NCBI GenBank assembly: GCA_017429695.1
Contig: JAFROK010000033.1
Location: 1 to 64,000, forward strand
Source of the DNA: Clostridia bacterium
GTDB taxonomy: Bacteria; Bacillota; Clostridia; Christensenellales; Aristaeellaceae
DNA: 64,000 nucleotides
Direction: 5' to 3'
Below are positions 39,893 to 62,800 of this stretch, in pieces. The translations under genes and the position numbers were made by a program. Position 1 is the stretch's first letter. Each line of letters starts with the position of its first letter. Under the pieces are notes generated by a model. It saw only the letters and a program-made list of their open reading frames with translations. It ran no database searches and was not told the origin of the DNA.

Positions 39893-42800
39893 TTAGTCGA
39901 AGCAGTCACCAACATGGTTAATCATCACTTCAACACCCAACGCAGTCGGATATTCATCAAATTCCGTCAGCTTCGCTTTCGGTACTTTCGGCGGCTTATG
40001 TTCCTGCGGCGTCTCCGGCACCGGAATCACACGGTTCGTGAATGTCGTCAGGTTGCCTTCAATCGTAACTTCTGTCTGCCGGTATCCGGCTACCCGCGGT
40101 TCGCTCCAGGTATACGCCACCGGTTCCCCGTTCTGATATGCCGGCAGGTCACTGATTGTCGCACTCCAGCCGTTTGCCGCATTCAGTTCAACCCGCAGGC
40201 CATTGCTCAGCGTCACGTAAATGTGTGCCGGCCTCATGCCCTGTTCATTTCTCCGGTCATCCCATACCTTCCGTACACTGACTTCGGTCGTTTCCGGAAT
40301 ATGGATGTTCGTCAGGATCGTCAGGCTGCCTTCCAGCGCAACACTCAGGGTATAACCCTCAACCTCTTCCTCTGTCCATTCATAGGCGATGATGCCACCG
40401 TCTTCACGTGCAACCGGCAGATTGTCAATTGCTACGGCCCAAGCATTTTCTTCGCTCAGCACAACCGTCTGAACCTCGGTTCCGTCCGCCATCAATCTGA
40501 CGCTGATCGTCTCCGGCCGGATGCCGTCCTGATTATCCTGGTCTTCCCAGACCTTCGCCACTTCCAGCGTTTGAACCTCAGGTTCCGGTTCCGAAGTCGG
40601 TTCGGGTGTAGGCGTCGGTTCAGGAGTGGGAGTCGGCGTAGGAGTAGGCGTCGGCCTTACTTCCGGTGTAGGAGTCGGCGTAGGTTCAGGTGTCGGCGTC
40701 ACTTCCGGCGTGGGTGTCGGAGTCGGTGCAGGCGTCGGCGTCACTTCCGATGTTGGTGTAGGTGTCGGTGTCGGTGTGGACTCCGGTGTAGGTGTCGGTG
40801 TAGGCGTCGGTGTGGGTGTTAGCGTAGGAGTCGGTGTCGGCGGAGGCATGGGAGGAGATGTCGGCTCAGGCGTATAGGCGTTTACAAATTCCGCCTTGCT
40901 CAGCGTTTCAGTAATCGTTCCCTTTTCACCTGTTGCAGTCGTTTCAAACGGTTCCTCCGGAGTTTCTTCAACCGCATAGACAGCACCTGTCGGCAGGCCA
41001 TTCGCCGTAGCCTTTTCGCCATCCTTCAGCGTAAATTCAGCTGTGCCGCGCACGAATTCCATATCGCCATACGTTCCGTTCACAGTCGTGTCGCTCAGTC
41101 TCACCGTGAAGCGGAACGCCCGTTCATGATGCTCTTTCGTTTCACTCACAACAATCTTGCTGACTTCCAGATCACCGGTCTTGCGCGTGTTCGTAAACTT
41201 TGCTTCAGCCTTTGTTTCGGAAATCCTTCCGGTCTCTCCGGTAAATGCTGTTGTAAATTTCTCATCGGCGATTTCTTCAACCGTGTATGCAACACCGGCA
41301 GGCAGACCGGTCGCAATCTTGGTTTCACCATCTTTCAATGTAAATGTTGCAATGCCATCCTTAAAGGTAATATCACCAAAGATTCTGCCTTCAGGATGAT
41401 CACTCGTTGTCCGGCCAATGGTTAAATCGCTCAGTGTCACGATGAATTCAAAAGTCTTATTGCTGAAATCTTCTGCCGTGCTGCTAACAACCGTCTTGCT
41501 GACTTCCAGTTCACCGGTTTCCTGTTTATTGATCAGTTTTGCGGATGCAATGGATGTTGTTGTAAAGGTTGACTCTTTCTCATCCAGCGTAAAGCGCGCA
41601 TAACTGTCTTCCGGCAGAACCACTTTCACTTCCTGTACAGTATACTCGATCCGTTCATAGTCATCGCCGGTTTTCTTGGTCTGGATCAGTTTTCCTTCCG
41701 TGTCTGTCCTGTATACAGGAAGCTTTGTCCACATCGCTGTCCATGCTTTTGTTTCACCATCTTCATCTGTTGTTCCGTCCAGAACAATGTCAGTCACATC
41801 AGTCCCGTCCAGATCCTTGGCGGTATTGCCGTCCGCCAGCAGATGAAGTGTCACTTTGGTCCCGTCCATGGCACTCTCACTGCCATCATAGTTCAGCCAG
41901 GTCTTATCAGCCGAAACAGTTGTCTCTTTGGAGAAGTTCTTGAAGATTGCTCTGGTTATATCAACCCTGTCACGAATACGGCGGTCATAATCTCCGAAGA
42001 AATCTCCGGCATTGAATTGCAGCTTCCCGTCATCATCAATAAGATATGTGCCTTTTTCTACATATTTTGTCCGGGCCGTATAGCATTCCTTGCCGTCTTT
42101 CACAGTCATGCCAATAAGCACATCGAAGGCAAAGTAATTCTTTGTATCGGTAATAAGCTGTTCCTGTGATTCGGTAGTTTCGAGTACAAGGTATGTGAAC
42201 GTTCTGCCCAAATCGTTCCGTGTCAGGTCATCCATCGTAATGGGAGTAAACTCAACCTTCGAGGGAATACCGTTCTTGGCATCTCTCACAATACCGGAAC
42301 CGATCTTGGTATCCGTATATGTATATTTGTAACACTCGCTTCCGAGAAGATATGTGCCGGTTCCTTCTGCGGTACTGTCTTCACGATAAACATCAAAGGT
42401 AAATGTTTCATTCTCGTGCATATCGCGATTATAAAGGATCTTGCTTACATCAGGCGTCCAAACAGCACTGCCGTTTTGCGGAACATCACCAATGATAATT
42501 GTACCGTTTGAACCAATACCTCCGCCTCTGGAGTCTGAATGATTACCGGTTATTACCACACTGCCTGTAGTTGGGGCTCCCTCACCGGGATTCGCCTTTA
42601 ACCGAACATCTCTGTCATTAATCAGGGACAGTTCTTCATCGGAAGCAGGGCGTTTTGTTTCCAGGTCAATCCAATTATAAGGTGTTCCATTCCACATGTA
42701 TGGAGATATTGATACTTTCATCGTGCCTGGAATTTTACCATAGCCTTCCCAATCCATAGTGCTGTAATACTCACAAGTAATGTCTGCATTATCGCCTGCG

Positions 42801-45800
42801 CGGTTGTTGTAGATAGCGGAACCATTTTGCAGGTAGATATATGAAGTGGATGTCAGGCAGCCAGAAATACCGCCGCCGGCAATTCCTGCGCTGTTGTCTG
42901 TAATCAGGGCTCTGGTCAGATACAGTTCGCCGTCCGCATACCCTTTATAGAACCCATGAGTACCATTAACATAGATACCGCCTCCACCATAGTTCGGAGT
43001 GTATCTGCCGCCATGGCTTGTGTTTCCGGTAATACTGCCGCCGGAAACATATCCTTTGCTCTCCATCTGGATATACAGGCCGCCGCCTTCGTACCTGGAC
43101 TCGTTGTCCGCAATACTGCCGCCTGTCATATAGAAAGTCGCAATATTACAGTCGTTACCGAAGAAGGTTGAACCGACACAAATACCGCCGCCATTGCCGC
43201 CGACCGATTTGTTTCCTCTTACAGACCCTGTATCGCTGAGATTCATCACAGCCTTACCGGTCAGCAGCACGCCACCGCCCAGTATGTGTCCTTTATCAGA
43301 GTTTCCTTTTTTCGCAGTATTATTTGATATGCTTCCGCCGGACATATCAAACCGTCCGCCGTGCATATTGACACCGCCACCACCGACAGCCGTGTTATTT
43401 GTAATCAGGCCGCCGTCCATAATAACTGTACCGTTCGATCTGATTGCGCCTCCACCGCAATACTGATTGTCTGTCCACTGTTCAACCACATTGATATTGT
43501 TGCGCAGTTCAACCCCTTCGTGTATTTCGATCGTTGATTTCTTATCACCGATAATCAGGGGTTCGCCTGCTTCCGTACTGTTGCCGTCCAGTATCACATC
43601 ATTCAGGATAAGCTTAGCACCCTTCAGGTTAACGAACGCACCGGTAAAGTGCTGATCGTTTTCCGTACCGGGGTAGCGAAGCAGGATAATAGTATTGCCA
43701 TCACCTTTATCCCACGTTTCATCTTCTTTAATTGTCAAAGTGCCCACAACATAGAATACAGAGCAATTCCTTTCATCCGAAGGAACCGGGAACCTGATTT
43801 CTTTTTCTGTATATTCAATGCCTGTTTTTTCAAAAGCATCACGAAGAACATTCGCAAGATCGGCATAGAAGTAATCCTTATTCTGCCCGTTACCGCTTCC
43901 GTTATTCAGATTAGCGTCTGCATATGCCTTTGCTTCGGCAAAAGATCTGAAGCCGTTACTTCTGCTTCCATCCGGGTTGTTGTTCTTATTTGTACCATCA
44001 ATATACAGGAATTCTTCTTCATCCAGGAACCGGAGTACTCCACCGGTTCGTTCAGGTTTTCCTTGATTGGTAAACTCATCCTGTTTATGGGCGACATAAG
44101 CAATCGCAGTATCCGGCATACCTTCGAAAATTTCACCACCAATTCCGCCAGATGTAGCGCTTGAAGTGCCCAGATAAACCCGTTCCAGATCTTCATTTTC
44201 GCCGAATACATGTGCTGATGTACTGATTGTCTTTGGGTTTGTCAGAGCAATATTCCTGAAGCAGCCAATCTTTGCAGCCAGGGATTCCTCAAATGTTTGA
44301 GTAGTATCAACGTAAGTTGTTCCTCCGGCAAATCCACCTTTTTCAGTGGCGGACAAACCGCCTTGCATCCAGAGAACGCCAACATCAGTCCCTGCAAAAG
44401 CATTCTTCTGAATGGTCGGTGCATTGCTCCCTTTGATCAGCACCTGGTCAATATTGCATTCAGCAAATGCATCGGTGGCAATCAAAACCTGGCCATTCTT
44501 GCCGTCAATCACCAGGGAGGAAATATTGGTCTTTTTGAATGCTTCTGCTTCAAGAGATGTTTTCCAACTTGTGCTGATATTCACAGTCCTGGCATTCGCA
44601 TTGCTGAAAGCATTTGCCTTGATCGTTACATTCTTTGCACGCGGAATATCAACCTTATCAAGGTTTGTACAGTTTTCAAAAGCATTGGGGCCAATACTCA
44701 TGTTTGTTACATTGTCAATCACAAGTCCGGGTAACGCGGTACATCCCTTGAATGCAGCATCTCCAACAACAATGCTCGGCGCTTTGTCATAGGCATAATA
44801 ACCATAGTAGTAACCGATCGTCAGTTCTCCCAATGACGTGCAGCTTTCAAATGCTGAATCCCCGATCTGGACTTCTCCGTCCATATCATCAATCGTCACC
44901 GTCTTCAAATTACGGCAACCCAAAAATGCCTGGTTATCAATGGATGCTTTGCCATCAACAGCGATTTCCAGGGCACCGATTAATTCATTGCCCTTGAAAG
45001 ATGCATCAATCTTCTGCGTACCACCAACCGCATGCAGCGTAAAGCCATCCATTGTATAGTTGCCTTCAGCAAATGTCAGGCCATTGGCATCCGGATCATA
45101 GCCGGCAGCTTTAAAGTACTCTCTGAAGCGTGCCGCATGATTGTAATCCTTACGGGACGCTTCCAGCGCTTTTGCAAAGCTGTTGAAAGGCGTCCCTTTG
45201 CTGCCGGTCTGATCTGCATCCTCATTAACGCTGGTATCAACGTACAGGTCAGTGGGAGCTGTATCCATAGAGTAGACCAAATCAGCAATGTTCTTTGTAT
45301 TTTTTCTCAGCCAATAGGTTTCGCTCGCCTCTTCACGGGGAATCGGCAGATCCAGGTAAATTCTGATTTTCTTTTCTTTCGGGAAAGAATCTTCAAAGAT
45401 GCCGGGATCATCATGTTTTTCAGTTCCCCGGATATAAACGTTCAGATAAGGAGCCTGAATACTATCCTCAACAAAGATAGCATCATCCGTTAAACCAGAG
45501 CAACTGTTTTTAAACACCAGGACCTTCAGCTTTTCGCCGCGAATTTCGTTCTCGTAGAATTGAGGCACAACATATCCGTCAAACACAAGCGTTTCCAGCA
45601 TGGTGGCATTCGCGCCAAAACCGCTCAGATAGTAGCTGCCCCTGCTGTCAATATTGCCGTCAATTTCAAGATATTTCAGTTTCGGGCAATATGCCAGCGC
45701 CTGTTTGCCGAATTCCATATCTGAGCCTTTCAGTTTCAGGCTGGTAAATCCGGTATTGTTCAGTGCATTATCACCAAGTCCGCGCAGGTTCCCTGTATAG

Positions 45801-48800
45801 GACAGTTCTGCCAGATTTACGCAATCCTTGAATGCTTCATTTCCGATACTGAAGTCATCCACGCCTTTGTTAACGATAAAACTCACCAGTGACACACAGC
45901 CTTCAAAAGCGCTCATGCCAACCGCACTGTTGGTGAAATCGCCGCGATCTGCATTTATCCAGCTTGAATCAAACTCTGCAGTGTCTTCAAGGCCGGAAGC
46001 GATCGTAACTGCTTTCAGTTTCTGATCGTTTTTGAATGCTTCTGCAGGGATAAAAATCGGCTTTTCAAGCTTTTCGCCCAGATTCAGGGTATACTGGCCG
46101 GAAATACCGCTGAACACATCACCAATTTTTCCATCCGATGTCTGTACAGTCAATCCGTAAGGCATTGCCACATCCACAGTTGCCGCACCGCAGCCATTGA
46201 AAGCAGACCCGGTCTTGAATTCCGCTTTGCCCTGTCCGGTAAATTCAACGCGTTCGATTGTTTCAATACCGGCAAATGCTTCGCTGCCAACAATAATCGG
46301 ATCGTTGTTGCTGAATACAACTGACGTGATCGTAATGCCTTCAGGAACAGATTTCAGTGCATTGTCAGCGACGCCAACCACCTTATAGGTTTTTCCGTCG
46401 ATTTCCTCTGTTTCATCAGGAATATTCAGTACATTGCCGGTAAAGTCCGGACCATAGCCGGTAATGGAAGCATTGCCATCGCCGTCCACCAGGTAGGTGT
46501 ATATTCCTGCTACCGTTTTTACATCAGTGGTATATGCTGCTGCATACGGGCTGAAGCCTGTAGCATCAAAAGCAAACGTCATCGTTCCTGTGGCCTGGTT
46601 CGCAGTAAAATCATCTGTAACTTTTACCACATCGTCGGCGATATGGAAGAATGCAAACTCACTCGGTGCAGTCGTATCTACACCGGTATAAGTCACTACC
46701 TTCTGTGTTATCTTAACATTTGCAGGTTTATCTACCTTTGCACCGTTCGGCGCAGTCAGAGAAAGGTCGAAATACTTGATCTTGATATCCTCATAAACGG
46801 AACCATCAAATATACCGCTCGCTTTGGCTTCCCGGATAATCTCCTTATCGAGGCTTCCGTTGGTTTCTTTGATCACTAGCGCTGTTCCGATAGGCGCTTC
46901 TGCACCCATCTCAAGCGTAATGGTACCGGCCTTACTGGAAACGATCTGTTTCGCACTGCAAACAGAATTGACTTTAGTGCCAGCAAAAGCATCTGTGCCA
47001 ATCGTCACCACCGCATCCGTGTTTTTCACTTCAACGGTTTCAAGGTTCGGGAATTTCTTCATTGCGCCATCCGGAATATTAATTTCCGTAAGGCCATCTT
47101 CAAAAACAATCGCTTTCAGATATGGATAATTACTTAAAGCATTGGAGGAATCGGATAGGTTTGCCACATAACTGCCATACATATTGGCCGGGAAATCAAC
47201 AGACGGATCTTTTGAACCGCTTCTGCCGGTCTTTCCGGGCAATACATGCAGTGTAAACCCATCAGTGACCGACTTCATTCCGCCATCGAAAATCAGATTA
47301 TACTCTGATACACCTGCCGCTTCGCACGCTGTCCGGAATGGTTCAATCTGAAGTGTCGCATTGTACAAGCAACCCATTGCGTATTTAAAACTGGTGAATG
47401 GATATCTCAGCGTACCATCATCACCATAACCGTCTACACTGATATAAATATCTGATGAATAATATTTGCTTGCATATTTGTAACCTGCTGTGCTCAGCTT
47501 GGAAGAGAAACTGCCGCCAAAGGCGCTCCATAATTCGTTAAACGTCATATTGAACCATACGATTCCTTTGCTGTTGGAACCGAAAGGCTGGCTGGAAAGC
47601 TTCGCAGCATGACCGATATAGATCATCTGGTTATCCTGGCTGAACGCTTTCTGATTGAAAGCATAGCTGTCCATTGTGCCGATATCATTGAAAATGGCAA
47701 CGCGCACAACTTCACTTGTAACAGCTCTTCCTTCCAATGTCCCTGCTTTACCGAGTACGATAACCGTATCTATCGCGGAGCAATTATCAAATGCATAGCT
47801 TTTGATTGTTCCAACATCGCCATGAACAATCACAGACTTCAGCATGGTATCCCGATTGAAGCCCTGACCGGCAATTTCACCGATAGTCTCTGCTTCAAAT
47901 GTCGTCAATTCCTTGTTGTCCATGAACGTGTTCAGACCGATTTTCTCAACATGGCCGAGCTTTACGAGAGTAAGGCCGGTACATCCGTTGAATGTCCAGC
48001 CCGCTTCAAACGTCACATGGCTGTTTTCGTTGCCTGTCACGCCTGTCAGTTTCGTGCAGTTATAGAACGCTTTCTCACCGAAGGTAACCATACCGTCCCC
48101 GTTCATTGCTACACTGTTAAGATTGCTCATGCCTTCAAACGCATTGGCCGGAACTGTAAAACTCTCTTCGTTGTTAAAAACAATCGCAGAAATTTTGGAA
48201 TTCCCCTTCATTGCATCTGCGCTGATGGATGTCACAGTAATATCATCACCGTTATCCGGTTTGCTGCTGATCATTGCGATTTGGGCTCTCTTGTTGTACA
48301 CACCGGTAATCACAGCAGTCTTTGTTCCATCATTCGCTTCTGTCACATCATAATAGAACATGCTGTCATGATATGTTGTTGCATTGATTTGATAAGCAAC
48401 CGCATAGAGACCCTGTTCTGCTGCTGACAGCGTAATCATGTTAATTTTGTTGCTGTCAGTAACTACTTTAATATTCCGGTACGCGTCGTTAACTGTTTCA
48501 CCAACAATCTGGTAGGTTTTCCATTCTGCATTATCCAGCAGATTCTCATAGCCAAAGAACGGGTATTGATATGCATTGATAGTTACGCTGCCATCATCAC
48601 ATTCACTGCCATCCGGAGACACAAGGCTGATCCGGATATAGCCGATCTCAACCTCTTCCGGTGCCAGAACACTTTGTGCAGCCTGTTCTGTAACTTCCCT
48701 AACAGAATCAGAAACAACTGCATCATCAATCATCAGCAAAGCACCCAGCGGAGTCCCCTTTTCTGACGCCGAAATGGTATAATACTGAGTGTAATCTTTC

Positions 48801-51322
48801 TCATTATAGTAAATTACTTGAGGATTCTTGATTGTTGTCTGCAGCTTGCTGCACCCATTAAACGCAAACGGGAAGACTGTAAACGTTGTATCTTCCGGAA
48901 GGTCAATCACTACCTGCTCAAGGCTGGAGCAACCATCAAATGTATAATTGTTTATGGTATCAAGCGGAGCATTGATCGTAACGGTTTTCAAGCCGGAGCA
49001 TTGCTGGAAAGCCTTGCTGCCGATGCTCTTGACCGTACCGTTTACCGTGAAGCTTTCGAGCGCATAATCGTATGAGAAGTTGTATCCTCCGATTGTCAGA
49101 TTACTGCCTGTAATATTGACCGTTTTCAGCTTTGGCATCACTTTGAATACTTCCTGTCCAATGGAAGCAATAGGACCATTACCGCCAACATCGGTCAGAT
49201 TCTGGCACCCATAGAAAGCATAATTCTCAATTTTCAGCGGTTCTGTATTGTTAAAAGTAACTGTCTTGATTTTTCCGTTCTTTTCAGGATCGCCATATTC
49301 TTTGGATCCGTCAAACGCGCTGTCGGCAATCCCGACAACCTTATATTCCGCTCCCTCTTTATCTGTATATTTATCCGGAATCACAATATTTCCGTCACCA
49401 TCATACGCATCACTCAGGCCAATAATGGTCGCTTTGTTGTCCTTGATTTCATATTCAAATATACCGTCATTGGGAATTTCCGGCGGTGCCACATTCTGAT
49501 ACAGGGAAATCCATTCTTCTCCGCTGCTGAATGTCACCCACCCTGTAGTATTATTTTCTGACCATGCAACATAAATCTGCAAACGACCGTATCCCTGGTA
49601 AGGGATCTGATCCAGGCAATTAACATCGAAGTCATAAAAATATCCCCCGTAATTACCATAATAATACTGATTCTCGCAAAGAATCTGACCGTCTTCATCT
49701 GTCAGTTTCCAATAAATGTAATACAGCCCGTAAATCGTTTTACCATATGTCTCAAGAGATTTTTCTTCATCAAAGGCATTGATGATTGTTGAAAGTTTCA
49801 GTGATGTCGCTCCGTCAATATTATAAACAAACGGACCAGGTGTTACGCTTTGTTTCTTTTCATCTGTTACTGTAATCTCCGGTTCTTCCTGATCATTGAA
49901 TTCCGTTTCGCTCGTCAGGAGGAAATCCTTCGCGCCGACTTTTGTCTCACCATTATTATAAGTAAAAGCACCGGCAACCTGCCTGACCGTAATTCCGCGT
50001 TCAGCCGGGAAAGAAACGCTCACCACATCTGCAACATTCAAAGGTTCAGAGTCGTTCTGCAGATTCAGGAGTGTAATCAGATCTGAAAGCAGCATCTGAT
50101 ACTTTCCGGCCTCAGAATAGTCTCCGCTGCTCAGATAATTCAGGGTTGTTTTTGATAAACGGGAATCGACGCTGTCCAGTCCTTCAACATTTTCCCATTT
50201 CAGACCGAAGTTTACTGTAAGATGCTCGCTGTCAGGAAATGCGTCTTCGGCAACTGTCATGGAATGATTATCGTTATCCGCAATGTTAATCTCAACTGTT
50301 CCGCCACCGTTCAAATAGCTGAAGGCATTGGATGCGATAGAGCCAGTGCCGCCTTTAACATTCACAGCAACCGAAGCGCTGCCACTGTTCTTGGAACTCC
50401 CGATTTTGGTAATCGTGTCCACGAATGTATTGAAGTTGATTGTCAATGATTTCAGGAATTTCCATTGACTCCATGCAACAATTCCCGAATCTGCAATAAT
50501 GGTCAGATCGGTAGTCTGGTTTGCCTGGGATAATCCATAATCGTTCCAGGTATAAGTGTCTTTCGATGTTGTGGTGATGCTCGCCAATCCGGAACAATCG
50601 ATAAATGAATATGCTCCGATATTATTGACTCCACCCAGGAATTCAAGGTCTCCGGATGTACTCTGGAATACATTATATTCATCATTGGCCGCCTTCACAG
50701 TCTGGCCGGAGCCAACTTTCAGCGTCAGATGATCGACAAACGCAAACGCCTTTTGCTTCAATGTAAAAGATCCGTTTGAACCGGAGTAGTTGGATTCAAC
50801 CGTAATGTTGGAAGCACGAAAGAAGGCACCTTTTCCGATTGCAACATCCTTGCCTGTAAAAACTATATGAGAATTACTGATATCCGAAAACGCACCTGTG
50901 TTGGAATCGCTGTTAGCCGAATCAGATACCCATACGCCACGCACATCAAGATTGTCTGCTGCAATCGTAATGTTCAGGCCACTTTTCCCTTTAAACGCTT
51001 TCTCCTTAATGGCTGTAACGGGATAGCTCTTTTTCTGTCCGCTGATAGTCAGCTCAACAGTTGCAGGAATAGAAATACTCTGCGAAGCCGTTTCCCCATC
51101 AGCAAATCCAACAACTATAGCATTGTCGCTTTCCAGCGCATACTCTATGCCGCCATAGATCATATTATCCGGCTGAAACGCTGAATTGAGTACGGATACA
51201 GAGTCAGAAGAATCAACCGTACCGCCGCTTGCTCCGGTAGCCAGTGATGTGAACGGTAATGTGTTAACAGCCAGGATGACTGCTGTCAGAACTGCAAACC
51301 GTCTGCGAAAACTCTTCTTCAT
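39893..51322 (-). CDS. Giant LRR / beta-helix / pilin-like / Cna-B surface protein
   Basis: 3809 residues. The signal peptide ([19 protein letters not shown]) is followed (~75-2440) by long arrays of BspA-type LRR_5 repeats (patterns such as AFxGC-x-L-x-x-V-x-I and I-x-x-x-A-F). These are interrupted by three copies of a YIDG/YVDT...PFxSFxxA segment. A right-handed beta-helix region (~2560-2960) has [21 protein letters not shown] and [10 protein letters not shown] Spy0128-like domain (~2970-3070), one Cna-B-like domain (~3130-3275), two DUF5979-like domains (~3275-3480), a Pro-Thr stalk (~3487-3587) and two Cna-B domains complete it. It ends [21 protein letters not shown] with no LPXTG or terminal hydrophobic helix. 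GAGGG lies 9 bases before the ATG. It is probably an adhesin stabilised by isopeptide bonds. Confidence 0.93.
40575..40862 (-). repeat. Pro-Thr codon repeat encoding the surface stalk
   Basis: Near-hexameric repeats on the plus strand (GTAGGAGTCGGC, GTGTCGGTGTAG) encode [10 protein letters not shown] units of a wall-spanning or extended linker between the DUF5979-like and terminal Cna-B domains. Confidence 0.85.
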
Positions 51323-51369
51323 CTTTTCTTCCCTCTTTTTTGTTCCGTATTCACTAACCATTGAAACGT

Positions 51370-51404
51370 AACCAGGGTCAGTCCTGTTTCAGGCTGACCC
51401 GGTT
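51370..51404 (-). other. Intercistronic hairpin between the acidic protein gene and the LRR giant
   Basis: AACC-GGGTCAG pairs with CTGACCC-T-GGTT across a 12-base loop, in an 86-base spacer. No T run follows, so it is more likely a stability or processing element than a terminator. Confidence 0.55.
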
Positions 51405-51408
51405 GGAA

Positions 51409-53475
51409 TTACATGTTCGTTTCTGCCCCTACAACGCGTACCTCAACGCGCCAGTAATGTTGGTAGTTGCTCTCGTCCACCACAATATCCATCTGTTCCT
51501 CGGTGGCGCCTTCAACCTCAATCCAGTTCACGTTGTCAACGCTTTCCATCCATTGCAGAGTGTATTCAAATCCTTCATACCCGCTCAGTTCGGCAGTGAA
51601 ATGTGCTGTAGATCCGAATCCAGGATTCTCATCATCCCATGTCAGCACAACGTTAACGGCTCTATCTTCCGGCAGCTCGGGAATGATCTCTTCCTCGACT
51701 TCTCCGGCAGTCTCTTCAGTGACCTCTTCAACAACCGCTTCCGTTGTCTCTTCGTTGGTCGTTTCTTCAGCAGCCTCTTCAGCCGTTTCTTCCGAATCTG
51801 TTGAAACATTCAGTTCAAACGTTTCAGACACCGTGCCATCCTGCATCACGAAGCGATATGCCCCTTCACCGGCTTCGACCATCACACTGTCGCCATAACC
51901 GATCTTTTTCCATTCGCCTTCTTCATTCAACGCCTGCCAGGTGCATACACCGGTCTGTTCTGGATCCGCGTTGGCGTTCAGCGTTACGATGCCTTCATTC
52001 TCTTCGGAAGCCGTCACCCACGCGAAGGTTGTTGTGGCTTCATCGGCCGCTTCTCCCACAGTTTCTTCGCCGGCGATTTCATCATCAGAAGTCTCTTCAG
52101 TGATCTCCTCATCAGCTGCATCTGTGGCTTCTTCTTTGATTTTTCCAGCCGTTACTTCTTCAGCAACTTCATCATCGTCCGCTTCCTTTTCAGCCGCTTC
52201 TTCGGTCGCTTCGTCAGTCACTTCTTCAGCAACTTCTTCATCGTCTGCTTTCTCTTCAACCGCTTCGTCAGCTGTTTCATCAATCGCTTCGGTTACTTCT
52301 TCAACAGTTTCTTCCGCAGCTACTTCTTCAGCAGTTTCTTCGTTGTCCACATTTTCTTCGATTACTTCTTCAACTATTTCATCGGTTGCTTCCGCTATTA
52401 CTTCTTCAGTTGCTTCTTTAACTACTTCCTCGTTTTCTTCCACAGCTGCTTCTTCAGCTGCTTCTTCGGTATCCGTTTCTGTTTCAGTCTCTTCCGCCGA
52501 CCGCTCGGTCCAGTTCATCCGGTATTCTTCGGAAATGATACCGTCTTCCAGCTGGAAGCGAATCAGGTTGTCAGCATTCTCTTCGGTGATGGTCAGCTCC
52601 AGCTTCTTGCCCTTGCCAATCTCCTGCCAGATGCCTTCTTCCCACTGCTCATCCCGGATTTCCCAGCGAACTTCACCGTTCAGTTCAGATTCAACCTTTG
52701 CCGTCAGGATAATCACATCGCCAATATAGGCTTCTTCTGTTTCTTCCCGAACGATCTTGGCCCGAACTGTTGCTGCTTCTTCAGCTTCTTCGGTTTCCGT
52801 GGTCTCTTCAGTGCTTTCGATTTCTTCAGTCTCTTCGGTTTCCTCAGCGACTTCAGTTTTTACTTTGTCTTCCTCACTGATCCTTTCAGAGGCCTCAATC
52901 AGCTCTTCAGTTACCTCAGGAATGAAACCGGCCACAACTTCCGGATCAATGTATCCGGCGTCGTCATCCAGTTCCTGATATTCTGCTTCGTCTTCTGGAA
53001 TCGTGTATCCTTCAAGCTCGTCGTATTCTTCTTCGGATTCCTCAGTTCCTTCGGTTTCAAGGCTCTCTTCAGATTCAAACGCCTGTGCATCTTCAGTCGT
53101 TTCTTCAGTTACTTCTTCAATCGCTGTTTCTGCCTGTTCTTCGGCGTTCTCATCAACTTTAGCACTGTCGGTATCTTCGGTCCCATCAGTTTCTTCGTTC
53201 GTTTCGGTTACTTCAGCAGTTTCAGTTCTTTCGGCTGTTTCTTCAACGACAACATCATCGCCGGCTGTCTCATTGGCTTCTTCAGCAATTTCGGTAGTCT
53301 CAACCGAAACTGTTTCTTCAGCCAGTTCCGTATTTTCCAAGTTCTCGGTTACGTTTGCTTCCGTATGATCTTCGAAGATTTCTTCCGCCTCTTCCGCAAA
53401 GGAAGCAAACGAAACGCAAACCAGCAGAATGCCGGCCAAGATCAGCGCGGCGATCCTCTTGATTCTCTTCGTCAT
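51409..53475 (-). CDS. Secreted, extremely acidic Glu/Thr-rich protein with three Ig-like modules
   Basis: 688 residues. The signal peptide (RIAALILAGILLVCVSFASFA) ends before EEAEE. Most of the chain is Glu/Thr/Val/Ala low complexity (ETEETEE- and EEVTEEA-like units), with a few Asp/Tyr-rich stretches. Three folded segments interrupt it: ~240-330 (VILTAKVESELNGEVRWEI), ~490-570 (TTFAWVTASEENEGIVTLNA, then CTWQALNEEGEWKKIGYGD) and ~610-688 (NVVLTWDDENPGFGSTAHF). All have Ig- or SH3-like beta patterns with paired tryptophans. GGAGG lies 8 bases before the chosen ATG. The net charge must be very negative, suiting a calcium-binding or repulsive stalk (inference). It lies between the two giant genes on the same strand and no recognised anchor is present. 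Confidence 0.85.
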   Translation of the reverse strand: MTKRIKRIAALILAGILLVCVSFASFAEEAEEIFEDHTEANVTENLENTELAEETVSVETTEIAEEANETAGDDVVVEETAERTETAEVTETNEETDGTEDTDSAKVDENAEEQAETAIEEVTEETTEDAQAFESEESLETEGTEESEEEYDELEGYTIPEDEAEYQELDDDAGYIDPEVVAGFIPEVTEELIEASERISEEDKVKTEVAEETEETEEIESTEETTETEEAEEAATVRAKIVREETEEAYIGDVIILTAKVESELNGEVRWEIRDEQWEEGIWQEIGKGKKLELTITEENADNLIRFQLEDGIISEEYRMNWTERSAEETETETDTEEAAEEAAVEENEEVVKEATEEVIAEATDEIVEEVIEENVDNEETAEEVAAEETVEEVTEAIDETADEAVEEKADDEEVAEEVTDEATEEAAEKEADDDEVAEEVTAGKIKEEATDAADEEITEETSDDEIAGEETVGEAADEATTTFAWVTASEENEGIVTLNANADPEQTGVCTWQALNEEGEWKKIGYGDSVMVEAGEGAYRFVMQDGTVSETFELNVSTDSEETAEEAAEETTNEETTEAVVEEVTEETAGEVEEEIIPELPEDRAVNVVLTWDDENPGFGSTAHFTAELSGYEGFEYTLQWMESVDNVNWIEVEGATEEQMDIVVDESNYQHYWRVEVRVVGAETNM

Positions 53476-53519
53476 TTCAGGTTCCTCCATCTTTGGTCCG
53501 GTTGTTTTTGCTCAATATT

Positions 53520-53541
53520 CGTAAAGGATTCTACCTTTACG
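53520..53541. promoter_or_regulatory. Perfect palindrome upstream of the acidic protein gene
   Basis: CGTAAAGG-ATTCTA-CCTTTACG, an exact 8-bp inverted repeat 45 bases before the start codon. On the minus strand the centre reads TAGAAT, like a -10 box. It is an operator candidate. The rest of the 365-base AT-rich spacer holds only the terminator below and no convincing -35/-10 pair. Confidence 0.55.
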
Positions 53542-53782
53542 ATAACCATTCTACTCATTCAAGGTGATGTACAAGGTTACATATACATTTATTTCGATAT
53601 TCTTACATGTTTTTGTTAAAAAACTGGTAAAAGCTATATTTTGCACACATTTTCGCTGAATGCTAGTATTTTCCATGCTTTTTGGCACTTCCGCCTTCTT
53701 TTGATTATATTGCAAAGTTACATTATTTTCTTGTTAGCAAACGTTTTCACGTGCCAGTCCCGTATTTGGTTACATCTCGTCC

Positions 53783-53820
53783 AAAAAGCAGCAGGGACCA
53801 GCTCATTACAAGCCGGTCCC
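53783..53820 (-). terminator. Terminator of the Cna-B/pilin giant gene
   Basis: On the minus strand GGGACCGGCT pairs with AGCTGGTCCC (with a G-T pair) across a 7-base loop, followed within 6 bases by TTTTT. It lies about 20 bases past the stop codon. Confidence 0.8.
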
Positions 53821-53840
53821 CAAATAATCATAAGTCTTCT

Positions 53841-56800
53841 TTAGTCAAAGCAATCTCCAACATGATTGATATACACTTCAACACCCAGTGCAGTCGGGTA
53901 TTCATCAAATATCGCATAGCTTCCGCCAGGCACCTTCGGATACTTATACCCTTCCGGAGGTTTCGGTACGCCTACCAGTTCATTCGTGAATGTGGTTACA
54001 TTCCCATTCTGCTCTTTCGTTTTCAGTTTGTAACCGATAATCTCCTGCTCCGTCCAGGTATACTCAATTTCCTGTCCGCCAGCATACTTCGGCAGTCCGG
54101 TAACCGTTGCCTGCCATCCGTTCTGTGCGCTCAGCATCACATTGGTTCCATTGCTCAACGTCATCCGGATGCTGGTCGGCCGGATATTCGCAGCATTATT
54201 GTTGTCATCCCATTCCTTCCGAACAACAACACTGGTCTCCTCCGGCTTATGAGTGTTCCGGATGGTATAGCCATTCACCTGGCTGGTATATCCGGGTACC
54301 GGATCTTCCGTCACGGAGTACCGGATCCGGTTGCCCCTGAATTCCTTCGGCAGGTCGGCAAACATATGCTGCCATCCGCCGGCTTCATTCAGCTGCACCG
54401 TTTCAATCACTTCACCGCCGGCACAGAGATGTACGGTAATGCTGCCGGGGCGGATGCCATCCTGGTTATCATTGTCGACCCAGACCTTGCGCACCTGGAT
54501 CTCAATCAGTTCAGGCTCCGTCTCCTCTTCGGGTTCCGGCTCATAGATATCGAACTTTTTCTGAATGACCAGTTTGCCACGTTCCAGCGTATTCGTAATC
54601 ACATATCCGTTTTCTGCATTACCCGAGATGGTCGCCTGGTATCCTTCCGGAATAGCAAGCTCTTCCACGGTATATGTGATTGCCTTTGCAGTGCCCGTTG
54701 TACCTGCCTTATTGATGTTCTTGTCCAGGTCTTCCCATACGTACTTCCAGCCGTTCGCCGCGTTCAGTGCAACCGGCTTTCCGACAGCCCGTCCATCGCC
54801 GTATAGCTGCACCTTAATTTCAGCCGGCCGGTCTTTACTGTTCGAATCATCCCAGGCCTTCCGCACGCTGACGCTGGTCTTTTCCGTCTTATGCTCGTTG
54901 GTGAATGTTGTCAGCGTGCCCCGGGTCACTGTTCCACTCAGCGTGTATCCGTTACCTGCCGCAGGCTCTTCCCAGGTATACACAATGTCCTTCAAGTCCT
55001 TGTCCACCATCGGCAGACCACGCAGTACGCACATCCAGCCGTGATCTGCGCTCAGGGTGACCGTTTTAACCTTTTCGCCGTTCGCCAGCAGGTTCATCCG
55101 GATACTTAGCGGACGCATGCCGTCCCGGTTATTGTCGTCCTTCCAGACCTTCTTCACCGCGACGGTTACTGTCTTTACCGCATCCCGCAGCAGAATGGTT
55201 CCATCCTCCCGGATGGCAACCGTAGATGCCGCGGTAATCCTACCTTCTTCATCAATGGAGAAGGTCGTATCCGTCGCAATGTCGTATCCATGCGGCGCTG
55301 TCACTTCATGCAGCGTATAGGTTTCCCCGGGTACCAGTCCTTCCAGTTTGTGCAGTTTGCCGCTTTCGCTGGTCCATTCGTCAAATACATTTCCGTCCTT
55401 GTCCAGGATCTGAATCTTGCATCCGTTCAGTTCGTCCCCGTTATCAATATCCACCTTCTGCACTTCGACTGAGAATGCATAGTTCGTAAACACCAGTTCT
55501 TCCGGTTCCTTATCTGCTTTCGCAATAATCGTTCCGTCGCCATTGTCCATCAGTGTCACGACAATCGTTTCGATATGTGTATCATAGACTACGGTCTTAT
55601 CTTCGCCCGTAACTTCAGAGATGGTATAGGTGAACGGGCTGTTTGCAAGGTCATCCAGCGTATACGCAATCTCACTGAATACAATCGTGCCGTCTGCTGC
55701 GTTCTTCACGGTCTGCAGCGTCTTACCATCCTCATCCTTCAGTTCGAAGCTGAATTCGTCCGCTGTCAGGTCACGTCCTTCCATAACTTTCACGGCACCA
55801 GGCACATAGTGGCCTGCGGCGGTATAAGTGTTCACGAACTCAACGATCTTTGTCTCCGGTTTCTCGAAGTTACCGGCAATCGTACCGCTCGCATTGGTAG
55901 CCTGCGTGGTATATCCGTCGTATGCTTCTTCCGTCACGGTATACCCCAGTCCGTTCGGCAGACCCAGAGCAGTCTTCTCTTCGCCGTCCTTCAGGGTAAA
56001 TTCAGCCACGCCCTTTTCAAAGGTCATTTCGCCGTATGCGCCGGTGATCGTGTTATCCGCCAACATGACCTTAAACACAAATTCCTTCGCCGGTTCAGCC
56101 ACACTCTTGGCACTCACCGTCTTCTTCACGGTCAGGTTGCCGTTGTCATACCTGTTGGTGAACTTCAGCGGTTCATTATTGGTGCTGTTGGTGATCTTCA
56201 GCTTACCGGTGCCTTCTTCCGTTACCCGCACCCGGACAACTTTGTCCGTATCGTTCTGCACATACGGAATGTTCCCGGTCTCCTTAATGGTATACACATA
56301 TTCTTTTCCGGCATGTGCCAGTTCATATTGGATCGTTCCGAAGTCCAGATCTACACTGCCACCGGATGTCGGTTTCACAGTGATGGATGTCTTTTCAGGC
56401 ATCGGTGAATCCGCAGGATCCGCTGTCACCGTAAAGGTCCATTCGTCCCTTTCCTTAAACTCACGTCCGGCGATTACCTTGGTTCCCTTCAGTGCGGTCT
56501 CACCGTCAGCGTTGTAGGTGTTCGTGAAGACCACAGGCGTTGTCACGCTGCTGTTCTCAATCTTAAGCGTGCCGTCACCATTGTCAGTGATCTTCACCGT
56601 TACTGTCTTTGCGACGTCATTCGTCACACCGTCCACTGTACCGGTTTCGGTAATGGTGTAGGTGTATGTCTTGCTAACATCCTTGTTTGTGAATTCGATC
56701 TTTCCGAAGTCAACTTCAATAGCCTTGCCACTGGCAGGTTCGATCGTCTCTGTCGTCTTCTCAGGCATCGGCGTACCATTGGCAGCTGTCACTGAGAAGG

Positions 56801-59800
56801 TCCACTTGTCTCCGGCCTTGAAATCACGTCCAGTAATGGTCTTCTGGGCCTTCAGCGGTGTGGAGTCAATCATGTAGTTGTTTGTAAACGCAGCGGTGCC
56901 AGCTCCGTCGATCTCACTTTCAAGCTTCTTGCCTGCAACAACTGTTAAAATACGGCCGTTATTGCCAACAAGTAAATCAGCCGTTTCTTCTTCTACCCAG
57001 TATATTCCGGCCTCCAATTCATCAGACAGTTCAGTCTTTGCAACATTGTCGCCAGCATTAAAAGCAATGCTAATAGTCTGCAGCGCAGGTTCAACCTTAG
57101 CACCGTTCGACATCGCATATACCTTGAAAGTATATGTATTATCCACAAGGCTTTCATTTGCAGTGGTCGGGGCAGCACCGTTCACCTGGATGGTCTTGGT
57201 AACCTTCAGCTTGCCATAGTCTGCATATGTGTTCTTTACTGTTACAGTCTGGCTGGTTACGACTGTGTTGTTAACCTTGTTGCCTAACACTGCCGTAGGC
57301 ACCGTCGTTCCGTACGATCCGTCTCCCAACTTGTATGTCGCAATAAACCCGGTCCCGCTTGTTTCGCTGACCGTGTAACTGCCCGCGGTCAGTTTGTGTA
57401 TCGTGACTGTTCCATCGCCGTTCGCTCCGTTGCTTGCGCTTACCTTGAATTTCACTCCATTAGTAACTGCCTCGAACGTTCCGTCAACTTCTCCATCTAC
57501 GTCAGCTGCCGTAATGTTCATCGCCGTCGCAGATGTTACTACGATCTCATACTCTGCACTCGCCGGTGCCATGTCGCCTTCCAGCGTCTTTACAACAACC
57601 AGGTCATATTCTTCTTTGTTGTTTGTGTACGTTGCAGCCGCCGCTCCCGTAGGCGTATTGTTCCCAGCAACAACTGTTAGCGTTACTGTGCGATTGCTGG
57701 TATTCGATGTTCCACTCTTTCCACCAGCAATATTCGTCAGGACAAATCCTGCAACAGCTTCTTCTGTTACAACATAGTCTCCTGCCTCAAGATTGGAAAC
57801 AATCGCGTCAGTGCCATTTGTGTAGCTTTCTATTGCCGCCAGGCCCGCCTTAGTGTCTGCTACTTTGTATCCGCTCGCAGTTCCGTTCGTGACCTTGATC
57901 TGCACATATTTCGTTACTTGCGTTGTTGCTGATGTCGGCCCGACTACACTAAAGATAAACTCTCCATTGACAGAACTCTTGTTCGTATCACTGCCATTCA
58001 GCGTTACGGCCTTCGTGATCTTCAGGCTGCCAGCCTGCTCTGTGTAGTTGTTTGTGAAGTCGACTGTGCCGTTCGGATTCTTACTCGACAGTTGAATTGT
58101 TGTGTTCGGTGTATCGCCTGTCTCAGTCTTTGTTCCCGCAGGTGTTGCCGTGATGGTCGTCGTCCGGGTGTATCCGCCAACGTTCGCATTCGATTCGGTG
58201 ACCGTATATATCACGCCAGGCTTTACATTGTTATCTGCCGTCGTCAGAATCCACTTGTCATCCGTCATATCCGCCCAGGTCTTGGTCAGCGTTCCCGTCA
58301 AACCAGTTCCACTTACTGCGAACGTGATCTTGTTCTTTTCAGTCGCGTCAATCGTAGCACCGGTAAAGCTCTTCGTGATCTCCAGCTGATATTTTTCGTA
58401 TGTGTTTGTAATCTCGATGGTTTTCTCTGTACTGGTTGCACTTAGTGTGGCTGTCGCGGAAGTTGCCGTTGTTCCATCCACCTTGATCGAGCTCGTATGC
58501 TCATAGTTCCCGATCGTAGTGTTTGACTCCGTCACAGTGTAATCACCAAGCGGAACATTGTTCAGCGTCAGCGTGTATACGCCGTCCGTTCCCTTCACAA
58601 ACTTCGGTTCCGTTGTGTCGTTGAGTGCCTTGTTTGTGATTGTTGTGAAGCCTGTCGGTCCGGTAATCGTGAACGTCACAGCGCCTTTCTGCGCATCCGT
58701 CAGATCGCTCGCGGCCGTTCCGTCGAACGTCTTCGTCACAACCAGCTTGCCCTTCTGCTCGTTCGTAAACTTCGCTTCGGTTTCGCCGTCTGTGTTCGTC
58801 GCCGCCGTCTTGTTCACTGCGAATCCATTCGTGTCTGTAACCGCAACTGTAAAGTAATGCTTGCTCTGGTCATACTTGATATGGTTCGAAGCGCTTACGC
58901 CGTTGCTGTCCAGATCATTCGGAATATCCGTCTCTTCAATCTTGAAGTAGAACGTCTTGCCGATGTCGTTCTGATCGAAATGGAGCGTGCTGAATGTCAC
59001 CGACCCGGCTGTTCCGGAACCTCCGGTCAGTTCCTTTGTTTCAGGCGTAGATAGTCTCACATATCCTGTCGGAATTTCTCCCGTCCCGTCCACAGAACCC
59101 ACCTGGGTCAGCTTGAATTTGAGTGTCTTGCCCGTCAGGTCACCGCCCATGAACGTCTTCGATGCGGTAAAATTCACGTCTCCCGCTCCCGCAAACGTAT
59201 TGTTTACATTCGCCGACGCGGTCTGCACCGTGCGCACCTGCGTTTCCGAATTCACCTGGTTTGCCGGGATCGTTCCGCCCAGGCCGGATGTCGCGCCCTG
59301 CGAATAGCCAGTGGGAATATTCACTTCTGTAATTGAATATCCTGTTCCCGCCGGCAGCCCTGTGATCGTCAGCGTCTCATTATGCTTGAGGTCGATTCCG
59401 GTTATCTTTGTCGTACCATCTGTCGTATTCTTTGTATAGGTAAGTGTCTTCGAAGTGGTGCCTACTGCAGCCGGATAACTGTCCGCAAGCGTGACGTTCG
59501 CCGGCGGTGTCAGTATGATCTCAAATTCAAACTCCGTCGTAGTGTCTGTCTGCGGCTTGCCGCTCGCTGTCTTCTTCAGGCTCAGGTTACCTGTATCAAT
59601 GTTGTTCGTGAACCTTGCTGTCGGCACAGTAACTGTGTCACCCCTGCTGACTGTCACCGTCGCCACATTGTTTGCTATGGTACCTGTTCCTGTCGTAAAT
59701 TCAGTCTTCAGCAGCGACGTACCGTTCGAACGTCCGGTCTCGGTGATCGTGTAAGTATCGGCTTTCAGGTTTGCAACCGTAACCGTACCGTCATTTGCAA

Positions 59801-62800
59801 TGCTTACATCCGAATCGGTTCCGTTCAGGCTTGCTGTTCCTACGTTGTTAAACACAACCTGAATCGTTTTTTCTACCTTGTCAGTCAGTGTTGTGCTCTC
59901 AATCTTGAAGGTGTATGTCCCTGCCACCAATGCCTTTTCAACATTGGTGTTCGGTGTCGTACCGTTCACGGTCACATTCTTCTTGAACTTCAGAGAACCA
60001 GTCAATATCGTGTTCGTGATCGTACCGCCACTTAATGCATACTCTATTGTCTTGCCTTCGCCGTTGTTATATGCAGGCGCTGCGTATCCTTCAACTGCAG
60101 TTTCTTCGACTCTGTATTCGTATTCAATTCCGTCCGAATTGTACTTTGGCAGATTTGAATAGGTGTACGTATTATCATTCCATGCAAACTGGATCGGAGA
60201 AGCTACTCGTACCACTTCCCAAACAGAGTCATCTGCCACTGGCTTCGCAGTCCGTTTAAGTGTTAACGTAATCTCCTGTGCATTATTGTGGACTTTATCG
60301 CCATCATTCAACCATTGTTTTGTTCCATCAACCGTCACAGTCTTGCGCTGGTTAACAAACTGAATAGCTTCTGCTGAATTTGTTGATGATATTTCAGATA
60401 AATAATTTGGATCAATCCTGTATCTATTTACCGTTTTTGTTTTTGGTATATTTGATTCTTCAAATTGTAATTTATTATCACTGTCAAGATCGTATACTGT
60501 AGCAACATACTGGGGTGATTCAGCAATAGATGAAGCATTCAAGCCTTCAGCATTTAGTTTGTAATACGTTTCAGTTTCCGTTGTTTTAGCGGTTGATCCT
60601 GTTATATTGACTCCAACAACAGTTTTTACAATATATTGTGTGGTATCAATGTCATATTCCTCAGTATTTTTGTTTTCACTCCGCCCGGTCTCATAAATGC
60701 GATAATAGTGTTCCCCCTCATCGGCAATTGTATATTGTAATTCAGGGAAAACAATCCTACCTCCGATATTTTCTGCTGTTTTTCGATCGCTTGTTTTCCA
60801 TCCACCATGTTCATTGTCCCACTCTTCCATAACAAAGGTAAACTTCTCTCTTTCAAGTGGGATTGTATTTTCTTCACTGCCAGGCAGATGCATCCGTTTT
60901 TTTGCTTCAAAGCCTATTTCTGCGCCAGTGTATGTCCAGCTTCTGTTCTGATAGTAGAAATGCCATTCTGCTCTGGAAATAAAAGTTCCGCTGGTCAAAA
61001 TTGTACCTGCGCCGTCTTGTTGAGTGACTTTACTGGCATTCGGGGCAAGAATCAAGCCCGATGCTGTGACCAAGTCTAGCGTTTGAGCCTGGTATGCATT
61101 AAACGTAATGTGACGCATAATGTCCTGATCCCAAGCTTTTGCGGCATCAGACAAACCGTTGCTGTTTGCAAATTCACTCGTTTGTGTTGATGTTGACCTC
61201 AGTTTTGAATTTGTGTTTTGAGGATCATATATATTGGCTACCATTTTCCCGATTTTTACGTTTGTGCCAGGAACATTAAACACAATGCTTTGGCCAGGCA
61301 GCTTATTAATCTCCCACCCTGTCTCCGTCATTTTATCCGCGATATTCTTGCAATCCACATAAATCGTGATTCCATCCGGAAAATCAGTAACATCCAGAGC
61401 AAGATTGCCATTATTCACCTTATCAGGTGTGACTGTCTTTTGGGCAGCGTATGCTACGGATTGGCTCTTCCCATACTCAATCAAATCATCTACGTAGTTA
61501 TTAATTGACGTCTGAGATGCGGAAACCAGATGGTAGCGGCCAGGAGCGGCATTAATTCTTGACTTCATTTCATTATGAATTTTGTTGTCAATATCTGCCT
61601 GCTGCATGAAAATGTACAGGTTGTTATTTTCCGATTCAATCCACAAAGGAGTTTCCGGATCTACGCTACCAATGAAGAATGGAATATCGCTTCCGCCAGC
61701 ACCATTCACACTATTGTTAGAATTATCGTAAAGTTGCTTAACCGCATAATTAGTTTCTGTATGACCATATTGTTCATAGCGATTTGCTATAACACCATAT
61801 TCCGCCGCTGTCCCTATTATGTCATGAGGGCCTACAGCAGTATCATAATGAGCCTCTGTCAATGTTATATAGTGTGTAATTGTTGATATATTGCCACTGA
61901 CTGCAACATTCTTGTCGAGGAAAGCACCACCTTCATCAATTAAATCTGTGTCGTAATCTACATCATAGTATTTGCTGCCAATCTTTATCGGATGCCCTTC
62001 ATTCACTATTCTGCCATTTTGAGTCAATCTCAAAGTATAAGATTCGTTGCCGGTAATGAGATTTGGATTATTTTCAACAGATGCTTTTTCATTCCAATAG
62101 AACACCGGGCTTTCCCCAGTCTGATCTTCCAGAACGTACGTAATAACTGTATTATCTCCAGTTGTCGTTACATTCGTTGTCCCATTGTTTCCGTAACTCG
62201 TTCCTGAAGAATTTGTTGATAAAACCGCATTGTTCAGTTTATCTGACACGTTACTGGCATGTTTTACTTCTTCATTCAGGTGTATACTCGTATCCTCAAT
62301 TGCTCCTGCTGAAGTCGGTATAATAACTTGCACTCGATATATTTTCTTTGTTGATTTGTATAAGCCAAGTTGTGTCTGGGTTTTAATGATCTTATTTTCA
62401 TTATCCAGTGTAGCTTGTGCATGGTACGTCCCAGCATCGGTACTTCTCCAGTTCTTGTTATACCAGAAATCAAAGCCGGGAATGCTATCTGTTCCGTTAT
62501 TCTCAGCCTCCTGAATACTCGTAGGAAATGCTGTCCCCTCTTTCAGTTTGTACATTCGAACAGAACTGGTATACACTGTAGGATCATAATGAAGCGAGCC
62601 ACCATCAATATCTATTTCATTATCATCAACAAGCTGGAAAAGATCTGTTACATTAATTGTTGTAGTGTAACTGCCGTCAGTATTTTGGGTTTCTATATTT
62701 GCAGAAACGATCTTGTAACCTACTGTTTTCCCGTTATTGATCTTCTTCAGCTTCACAAGATAATAGAGCGTTCCGCTCAGGTTGGATTCAACATGTTGCG

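Follow-up and report, generated by a model that had tools for sequence, protein, structure and literature searches.

Background

Surface proteins of monoderm bacteria are taught to be held by sortases, lipid anchors or wall-binding domains. Here we describe a short C-terminal tail, with INHVGDCFD as its last nine residues, shared by two giant secreted proteins that are encoded in a 64,000-nucleotide stretch of a Clostridia bacterium genome (assembly GCA_017429695.1, contig JAFROK010000033.1, positions 1 to 64,000; hereafter the window), and a family of secreted substrate-binding proteins (SBPs) of the Pfam family SBP_bac_5, hereafter the partner, encoded beside tail genes elsewhere in this genome and in its relatives. 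On the side of the tail the closest described system is LPXTG with its sortase, also a short C-terminal motif on varied secreted proteins served by a dedicated cognate protein, and PEP-CTERM-like C-terminal tags are a comparable case of a short motif with a cognate protein. The tail differs from LPXTG in having neither a membrane helix nor a basic end and in placing its motif at the very last residues; furthermore, the cognate of LPXTG is a transpeptidase whereas that of the tail has a binding-protein fold and is predicted to act non-covalently. Cohesin-dockerin and WxL-type assembly resemble the tail system in that the products of clustered secreted-protein genes are joined by non-covalent recognition, but their tag is a folded domain and here it is a disordered tail of 9-22 residues. 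For the WxL gene clusters, non-covalent surface assembly is described in a part of PMC5817068.

On the side of the partner, AppA of Bacillus subtilis and OppA of Lactococcus lactis have the same fold, belong to the same Pfam family and bind long peptides. In a section of PMC10924461 the L. lactis protein is described as binding longer peptides with the positions of their ends unconstrained, and this freedom is what a tethered tail would need. Both differ from the partner, whose gene adjoins a tail gene, for which no OppB/C homologue was found in the neighbourhood, and whose probable ligand is the end of the neighbour-encoded protein instead of a nutrient. Pheromone-binding proteins of the PrgZ/TraC type also share the SBP_bac_5 fold; here, in contrast, the ligand would be the end of large surface proteins, identical across many species. 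In our literature searches we found no description of the tail letters and nothing fitting for sortase-independent or SBP-based display.

A short C-terminal tail on giant secreted proteins

Both giant genes lie on the minus strand and end in [MY]INHVGDCFD followed immediately by the stop codon, the pair of tails spanning 39893..53912. Giant protein 1 (39893..51361, minus strand, 3822 aa) carries its 22-residue tail, of the form that we call class A, at 39896..39961 with the stop at 39893-39895. The gene of giant protein 2 (53841..64000, minus strand) extends past the window edge to a start at about contig position 65198, giving about 3785 aa with the N-terminus outside the window; its class-A tail, also of 22 residues, occupies 53844..53909 (stop 53841-53843). 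A preliminary description of this DNA had pointed out the common tail, and the agreement is indeed far above chance. The linkers that precede it differ, as it had said (PPKVPKAK and YPKVPGGS), and the greater conservation of the tail was borne out by the first set of loci, which agree in INHVGDCF[DE] and vary freely in the linker.

From its N-terminus, giant 1 has what by eye is a signal peptide, followed by BspA-type LRR_5 repeats, DUF7601, Cna_B domains, a Pro/Thr linker and the tail, a Cna_B domain being the final folded unit. Reading of both giant ends confirmed the earlier statement that neither has LPXTG or a terminal hydrophobic helix, and nothing follows the tail, which ends the open reading frame (ORF). 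The LPXTG family PF00746 did not match proteins P0001 or P0004, and the tail ends read do not show its combination of LPXTG-like motif, hydrophobic helix and basic tail. In a scan of the curated C-terminal sorting families of NCBIfam, which covered P0004 and the tail protein of locus L060 and left out the giants themselves, P0004 with its class-A end had no match and the L060 protein matched only through its pilin-like body, under the cut-off. Cna_B (PF05738) is present in P0001, P0004 and P0011, and some tail proteins are without it.

AlphaFold was run on the C-terminal 192 residues of giant 1 together with an alignment of 41 ends. The last Cna_B domain was modelled with block values of pLDDT of 92-98 and the tail without secondary structure, with block values of 46-56. 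This rules out that the tail is a strand of the last Cna_B fold, which had been named beforehand as an explanation that would undo the idea of a signal. As modelled, the most conserved part of the protein is unstructured, which is typical of a linear motif.

The tail is not limited to the two giants to which it had been assigned. The genome (G000; 3.03 Mb in 60 contigs) has five tail genes, three with INHVGDCFD and two with variant ends, ...MATGESYE and ...GSGELAE, that belong to other pairs. The third INHVGDCFD copy is that of P0004, a secreted Cna_B protein of 631 aa encoded on another contig. Similarly, the absence of a sortase gene holds for the window, the three sortase matches of the genome being all off this contig, but not for the genome itself, which has three sortase genes; two of these directly adjoin proteins with an ordinary PKTG-type sorting signal.

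Distribution and variation of the tail

One genome each of 84,980 species was scanned at the DNA level for NHVGDCF[DE] without demanding a stop codon, and gave at least 83 matches in at least 80 stretches. Among the 83 matches listed a stop follows directly in 78, all from records whose titles read Clostridia, Clostridiales, Christensenella(ceae), Oscillospiraceae or Firmicutes, many of them ruminant-derived, and the remaining 5 lie within frames of unrelated taxa, a number that fits chance. The frame before the tail is broken in two of the 78 (L168 and L219, genomes G042 and G012); the other 76 have no internal stop in the stretch shown. Within the window's genus (45 genomes) a tail match at E <= 1e-4 was found in 33 genomes, two of them (G012 and G042) with an in-frame stop in the tail, and in 37 with E up to 1, a count that includes at least one clear chance match inside an SBP (L063). 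A profile of the 22-residue tail at E up to 0.1 matched 118 of 300 genomes of the family, some chance matches included, and at the level of the order (396 genomes) the sole match outside the family was an 8-residue fragment. The tail is thus phylogenetically restricted by both the pattern scan and the order-level search, and the data support its being a real signal at the C-terminus of secreted stalk proteins of one lineage. The wider system reaches beyond a single family, since two genomes of another family, reached via the partner search, have paired genes ending ...GNQVGECFE and ...GNQTGECFE.

The consensus of the last 8-9 residues is [IVM]N[HN]VG[DE]C[FY][DE]-COOH. In 105 partner-linked tails the last five positions are Gly (104 of 105), one of D/E/V/I/H, Cys (92), a hydrophobic residue, mostly F or Y, and D/E (104). 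Tails of other genera end ...INVGDCLE or ...LNAGECFE, and among the weak matches of the first search there are pilin-like proteins in sortase loci that end ...DDYETPLGLGEIQIHVGVCYE. As for the DNA, 75 distinct class-A ends are encoded by 50 different 27-base spellings, of which only the third-position freedom is informative, the set having been chosen by a pattern that fixes most residues. One tail (L158:7610-7632) belongs to a Glu-rich protein that does not resemble the stalk proteins on which tails usually occur.

The partner is an SBP_bac_5 protein

Directly downstream of the P0004 gene is encoded P0005, a secreted SBP_bac_5 (OppA-like) protein that matches PF00496 with 81.6 bits (cut-off 32.4), a cut-off that all three partners in the window's genome exceed. 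The partner is predicted to have the OppA/AppA fold and falls by its model in Cluster C (OppA-like). The best structural match was AppA holding a nonapeptide, and identity to solved relatives was 12-19% in the structural alignments shown. PrgZ (4faj), a pheromone-binding SBP_bac_5 protein specialised for one peptide and with no permease of its own, was also among the matches.

A phmmer search (E up to 1e-4) with permeases of the same genome, over ORFs of at least 150 aa in loci L004, L005, L046-L085, L109-L148 and L259-L273, matched only the transporter loci L267 and L268, though a remote or diverged permease could escape it. The adjoining cognate permease genes of an oligopeptide ABC importer are therefore not found in the loci searched. 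For distant partner-like SBPs from outside the order (L356, L357), inspection by eye showed no tail gene upstream and a permease-like gene on the downstream side. The partner is probably a dedicated SBP_bac_5 protein that no longer serves a peptide importer. An oligopeptide importer of a monoderm bacterium would be expected to have a lipoprotein anchor, but the missing lipobox of most partners is no argument against transport, because the transport SBPs of the same genome (L267:3984-5933 and L268:4523-6394) have no lipobox either, with ends by eye of the signal peptidase I type, and we dropped that line of reasoning. A diderm envelope as the cause of soluble SBPs was also rejected, as no Omp85 was found in the genome. 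Within the last 30 residues of P0005 and other partners, many have an acidic end with aromatics (...DDEGFFD, ...GEEFFEE, ...GEELFDD), which might be a second docking element.

Gene pairing between tail and partner

Among 95 distinct tail genes, most of them from loci that had been fetched via tail matches, 69 have a relative of the partner on the same strand at most 400 bp downstream. The preliminary description had recommended looking for a co-occurring enzyme family, and a dedicated SBP_bac_5 family is what stands beside the tail genes. The 26 tail genes with no partner within this distance are, in 25 cases, from the window's genus, and mostly extra giants or tandem copies. At L106 (G135) and L145 the partner is only seemingly missing, its ORF call overlapping the tail gene.

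For the converse, which is the stronger test, a partner profile (A2), made from the partners of tail genes, was searched in the 300 family genomes regardless of tails. In all 29 distinct full-length partner loci returned by score with room upstream, the upstream gene ends in a tail. A tail was also upstream in 16 of 19 partner loci picked for weak or silent tail detection (17 after resolving an overlapping start) and in 20 of 22 loci of an order-level partner search, many of them genes already seen. Under one fixed rule a tail was found upstream in 105 of the 115 partner genes with room upstream. The ten failures include two with a variant ...NIDDC[IL][DE] by eye (L312, L320), two with the tail hidden by an overlapping ORF start or ending just inside the partner ORF (L309, re-read as L367, and L135) and two at a locus edge, both of which the tail pattern had brought in (L217, L221). 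This leaves L346, L317, L322 and L339, of which the last is a distant SBP that has no tail and is followed by a permease-like gene.

In the genus a partner was found at E up to 1e-120 in 40 of the 45 genomes, and the five partnerless ones (G010, G012, G013, G034, G042) have no intact tail. Judged by eye from coordinates, the partner stands directly behind an intact class-A tail in 30 of the 31 genomes with such tails. In this lineage the tail and an SBP_bac_5 protein without adjoining permease are a two-part module. We rejected the idea that the tail merely results from the translational coupling of its gene with that of the partner, since giants without a linked partner and viral contigs (see below) keep the tail, and the codon spellings vary. 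As a separate observation, tail-coding DNA persists with an in-frame stop in two of the genomes without partner gene (L353 in G012 and L354 in G042).

Co-divergence of tail and partner

In a tree of 105 partners the tail classes sort into partner clades, even where several classes coexist in one genome, as in G000, which holds class A, GESYE and GELAE pairs. The distance between partners and the difference in the last nine tail residues gave a Mantel r of 0.74, the largest value of 300 permutations being 0.15, and 49 non-overlapping contrasts gave a correlation of 0.73. Position -4 of the tail goes with the partner residue at the position of Arg656 of P0005: this is Arg in 73 of 73 pairs with Asp at -4, Glu or Ala in 13 of 13 with Val or Ile, and Arg in 11 of 18 with Glu. 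The chemical match between Arg656 and Asp -4 is a pointer and no more than that.

Tail proteins with sortase domains and in viral contigs

In four loci (L120, L124, L128, L141) the tail is borne by membrane proteins that also have a sortase domain and a Cna_B or MBG stalk, and the partner gene comes next. The proteins of L360 and L363 look like them, and their sortase domains are among the sortase matches. In another class (HVGVC[FY]E) the tail gene is flanked by a class C-like sortase on one side and the partner on the other, with LPSTG pilins nearby. The sortase-tail proteins and the tail genes that adjoin sortases indicate that the tag system works alongside sortases and does not replace them.

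The NHVGDCF[DE] pattern was also found in 11 contigs of IMG/VR (L369-L379) of 10-193 kb, whose viral status is IMG/VR's own classing, and all 11 matches end an ORF. The proteins carry the class-A tail of the host, and most have a length of about 600-1281 aa and, by eye, a signal peptide. Of seven that were scanned, six matched Pfam families of adhesin type (Cna_B, SpaA, pAdhesive_15, VWA) with E up to 0.001, one of the six only below the curated cut-off. The 193-kb record encodes a virion structural protein, a DnaB-like helicase, a Sak4-like annealing protein and a topoisomerase II, which supports its phage nature, and the one protein scanned in the 133-kb record is a topoisomerase II. On each of L369, L375 and L379 one neighbouring gene product belongs by its match to a phage family (RNA ligase, phosphoesterase, PAPS reductase); four other neighbours scanned on the viral contigs gave no family match.

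Proposed function and alternative explanations

We consider it probable that the tail is a portable C-terminal address tag and that its receptor is a repurposed secreted SBP_bac_5 protein, in a system of surface assembly that is used in trans and also by phages. The tag-bearing protein would be exported by the Sec route; in the simplest mechanism the cleft between the lobes of the partner would then receive its last 8-9 residues, carried on a disordered arm, as a peptide ligand that stays tethered. The association of tag and partner is shown, and the binding in the cleft, the action in trans and the outcome at the surface are what we infer. By such binding the partner could couple Cna_B giants, short pilin-like proteins and tail-bearing membrane sortases into one surface assembly, a single partner serving several tag proteins in trans, and phages might exploit the host partner by equipping secreted proteins of their own with this tag. 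The likeliest purpose would be to retain or assemble the tag proteins at the surface. The full statement, that an oligopeptide-import receptor became a C-terminal tag receptor in a non-covalent address system, with several distinct tag-receptor pairs per genome serving giant adhesins, pilin-like proteins and membrane sortases, and hijacked by large phages that put the host tag on secreted adhesin-like proteins, has in our view slightly favourable odds. Handling of surface proteins by a tag and a peptide receptor would be a new kind of system. If true, a short tail read by a repurposed peptide receptor is a further principle of surface-protein handling that accounts for how LPXTG-less giants are dealt with in rumen and gut bacteria; it would also supply naturally distinct tag-receptor pairs, and phages would be addressing cargo to the host surface through tag copying.

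Several observations weigh against this proposal. Linkage alone would give part of the signal in the Mantel test and the contrasts, as neighbours co-diverge even without contact, and by eye the change at Arg656 comes close to having happened just once on the tree. As the partner profile was made from the partners of tail genes, its top matches are near relatives of known pairs. Three partners (G033:C8, G298, G023) were re-read with no tail gene directly upstream, all three with the companion gene (see below) downstream, and the one clear exception in the genus, G028 (97% complete; L067), has two tandem class-A giants and no close class-A partner. The partner model has a modest pLDDT of 71.5, and several regions that hold covarying columns are of low confidence. 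Most partners have no lipobox, a permissive test being passed by 14 of 119, so the proposal offers no means by which the complex would be held on the cell. Finally, none of the 11 IMG/VR records showed a partner gene, from which the viral proteins would probably need the partner of the host and the tail would probably act in trans, but this is weak evidence given that the records may be fragments.

Among the alternatives, the one that stands up best sees in the partner an extracytoplasmic chaperone or checkpoint, which would hold the C-terminus of very long stalk proteins during export or folding only and have no lasting anchoring role. It has the binding step in common with the address-tag proposal and fits the gene pairing, the extreme C-terminal position, the tail genes without linked partner and the length of many clients. 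Small clients of 144 to about 350 aa nevertheless carry the tail and have their own partner, and the membrane-sortase clients suggest a lasting complex; neither point is decisive, and we regard the chaperone role as unlikely.

Less probable still is that the tail is the substrate signal of a sortase-like transpeptidase, which would cut at the Cys, or within or close to T-[AP]-L-G, and link the protein to the wall or to a pilus. The position of the HVGVC[FY]E tail gene directly behind a sortase and the membrane sortases that bear the tail themselves would agree with it. However, the motif is not followed by a hydrophobic helix or a basic end, separate LPSTG proteins of the ordinary kind are encoded in several of these loci, and neither cut site is constant, T-[AP]-L-G being absent in some paired tails and the Cys in 13 of 105. 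Furthermore, tail and partner are present in 6 of the 9 genus genomes without a sortase match (G005, G022, G024, G036, G040, G044), though these are 54-85% complete.

We give the same low standing to the tail as the precursor of a secreted signalling peptide, its end freed by a protease and received by the SBP_bac_5 protein in the manner of pheromone receptors that borrow the shared oligopeptide permease. The oligopeptide-binding fold, PrgZ among the structural matches and a gene pair that looks like ligand and receptor speak in its favour. Pheromones, though, usually diversify, and the same nine residues occur in tens of metagenome-assembled genomes and on several unrelated proteins per genome, including giants and virus-encoded ones. 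No permease was found in the tail loci searched, and the few partners with a lipobox are a further point, a weak one as the transport SBPs here also lack it.

The preliminary description had considered the Cys at -3 invariant and had suggested cross-linking through it. It is present in all 27 tails of the first alignment, but 13 of the 105 partner-linked tails have Thr, Ser, Ala or Leu, among them two of the three in the window's genome, so the wider tail family can do without it. That this Cys forms a disulfide or thioester cross-link is therefore very improbable in spite of its frequency, as three partners of Thr tails retain the cysteine that is commonest among partners, and it is missing from five partners of Cys tails. 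Covariation was rejected too, no partner cysteine column tracking the tail Cys in 59 aligned pairs, of which only 3 have tails without Cys, and the partner has a peptide-binding fold and not that of a known cross-linking enzyme. What stands of the earlier idea is that the tail is a real C-terminal signal accompanied by a dedicated partner family; the emphasis on the Cys and on cross-linking is not supported.

Companion genes

Directly upstream of giant 1 the window encodes a Glu-rich secreted companion protein of 693 aa (51409..53490, minus strand). Three companions were scanned (P0002, P0006 and that of L374) and gave no Pfam match. The C-terminal domain of the companion recurs directly upstream of other giants (L004:5196-7508, L005:13868-16252), in a family of secreted proteins that are often Glu-rich. 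Four of the viral tail genes are also directly preceded by a small secreted companion (L372:10427-10810, L373:13543-14283, L374:1291-1674, L376:10477-10929), homologous to the C-terminal domain of the window's Glu-rich proteins with E values of 4e-18 to 1.5e-7 against a host-only profile.

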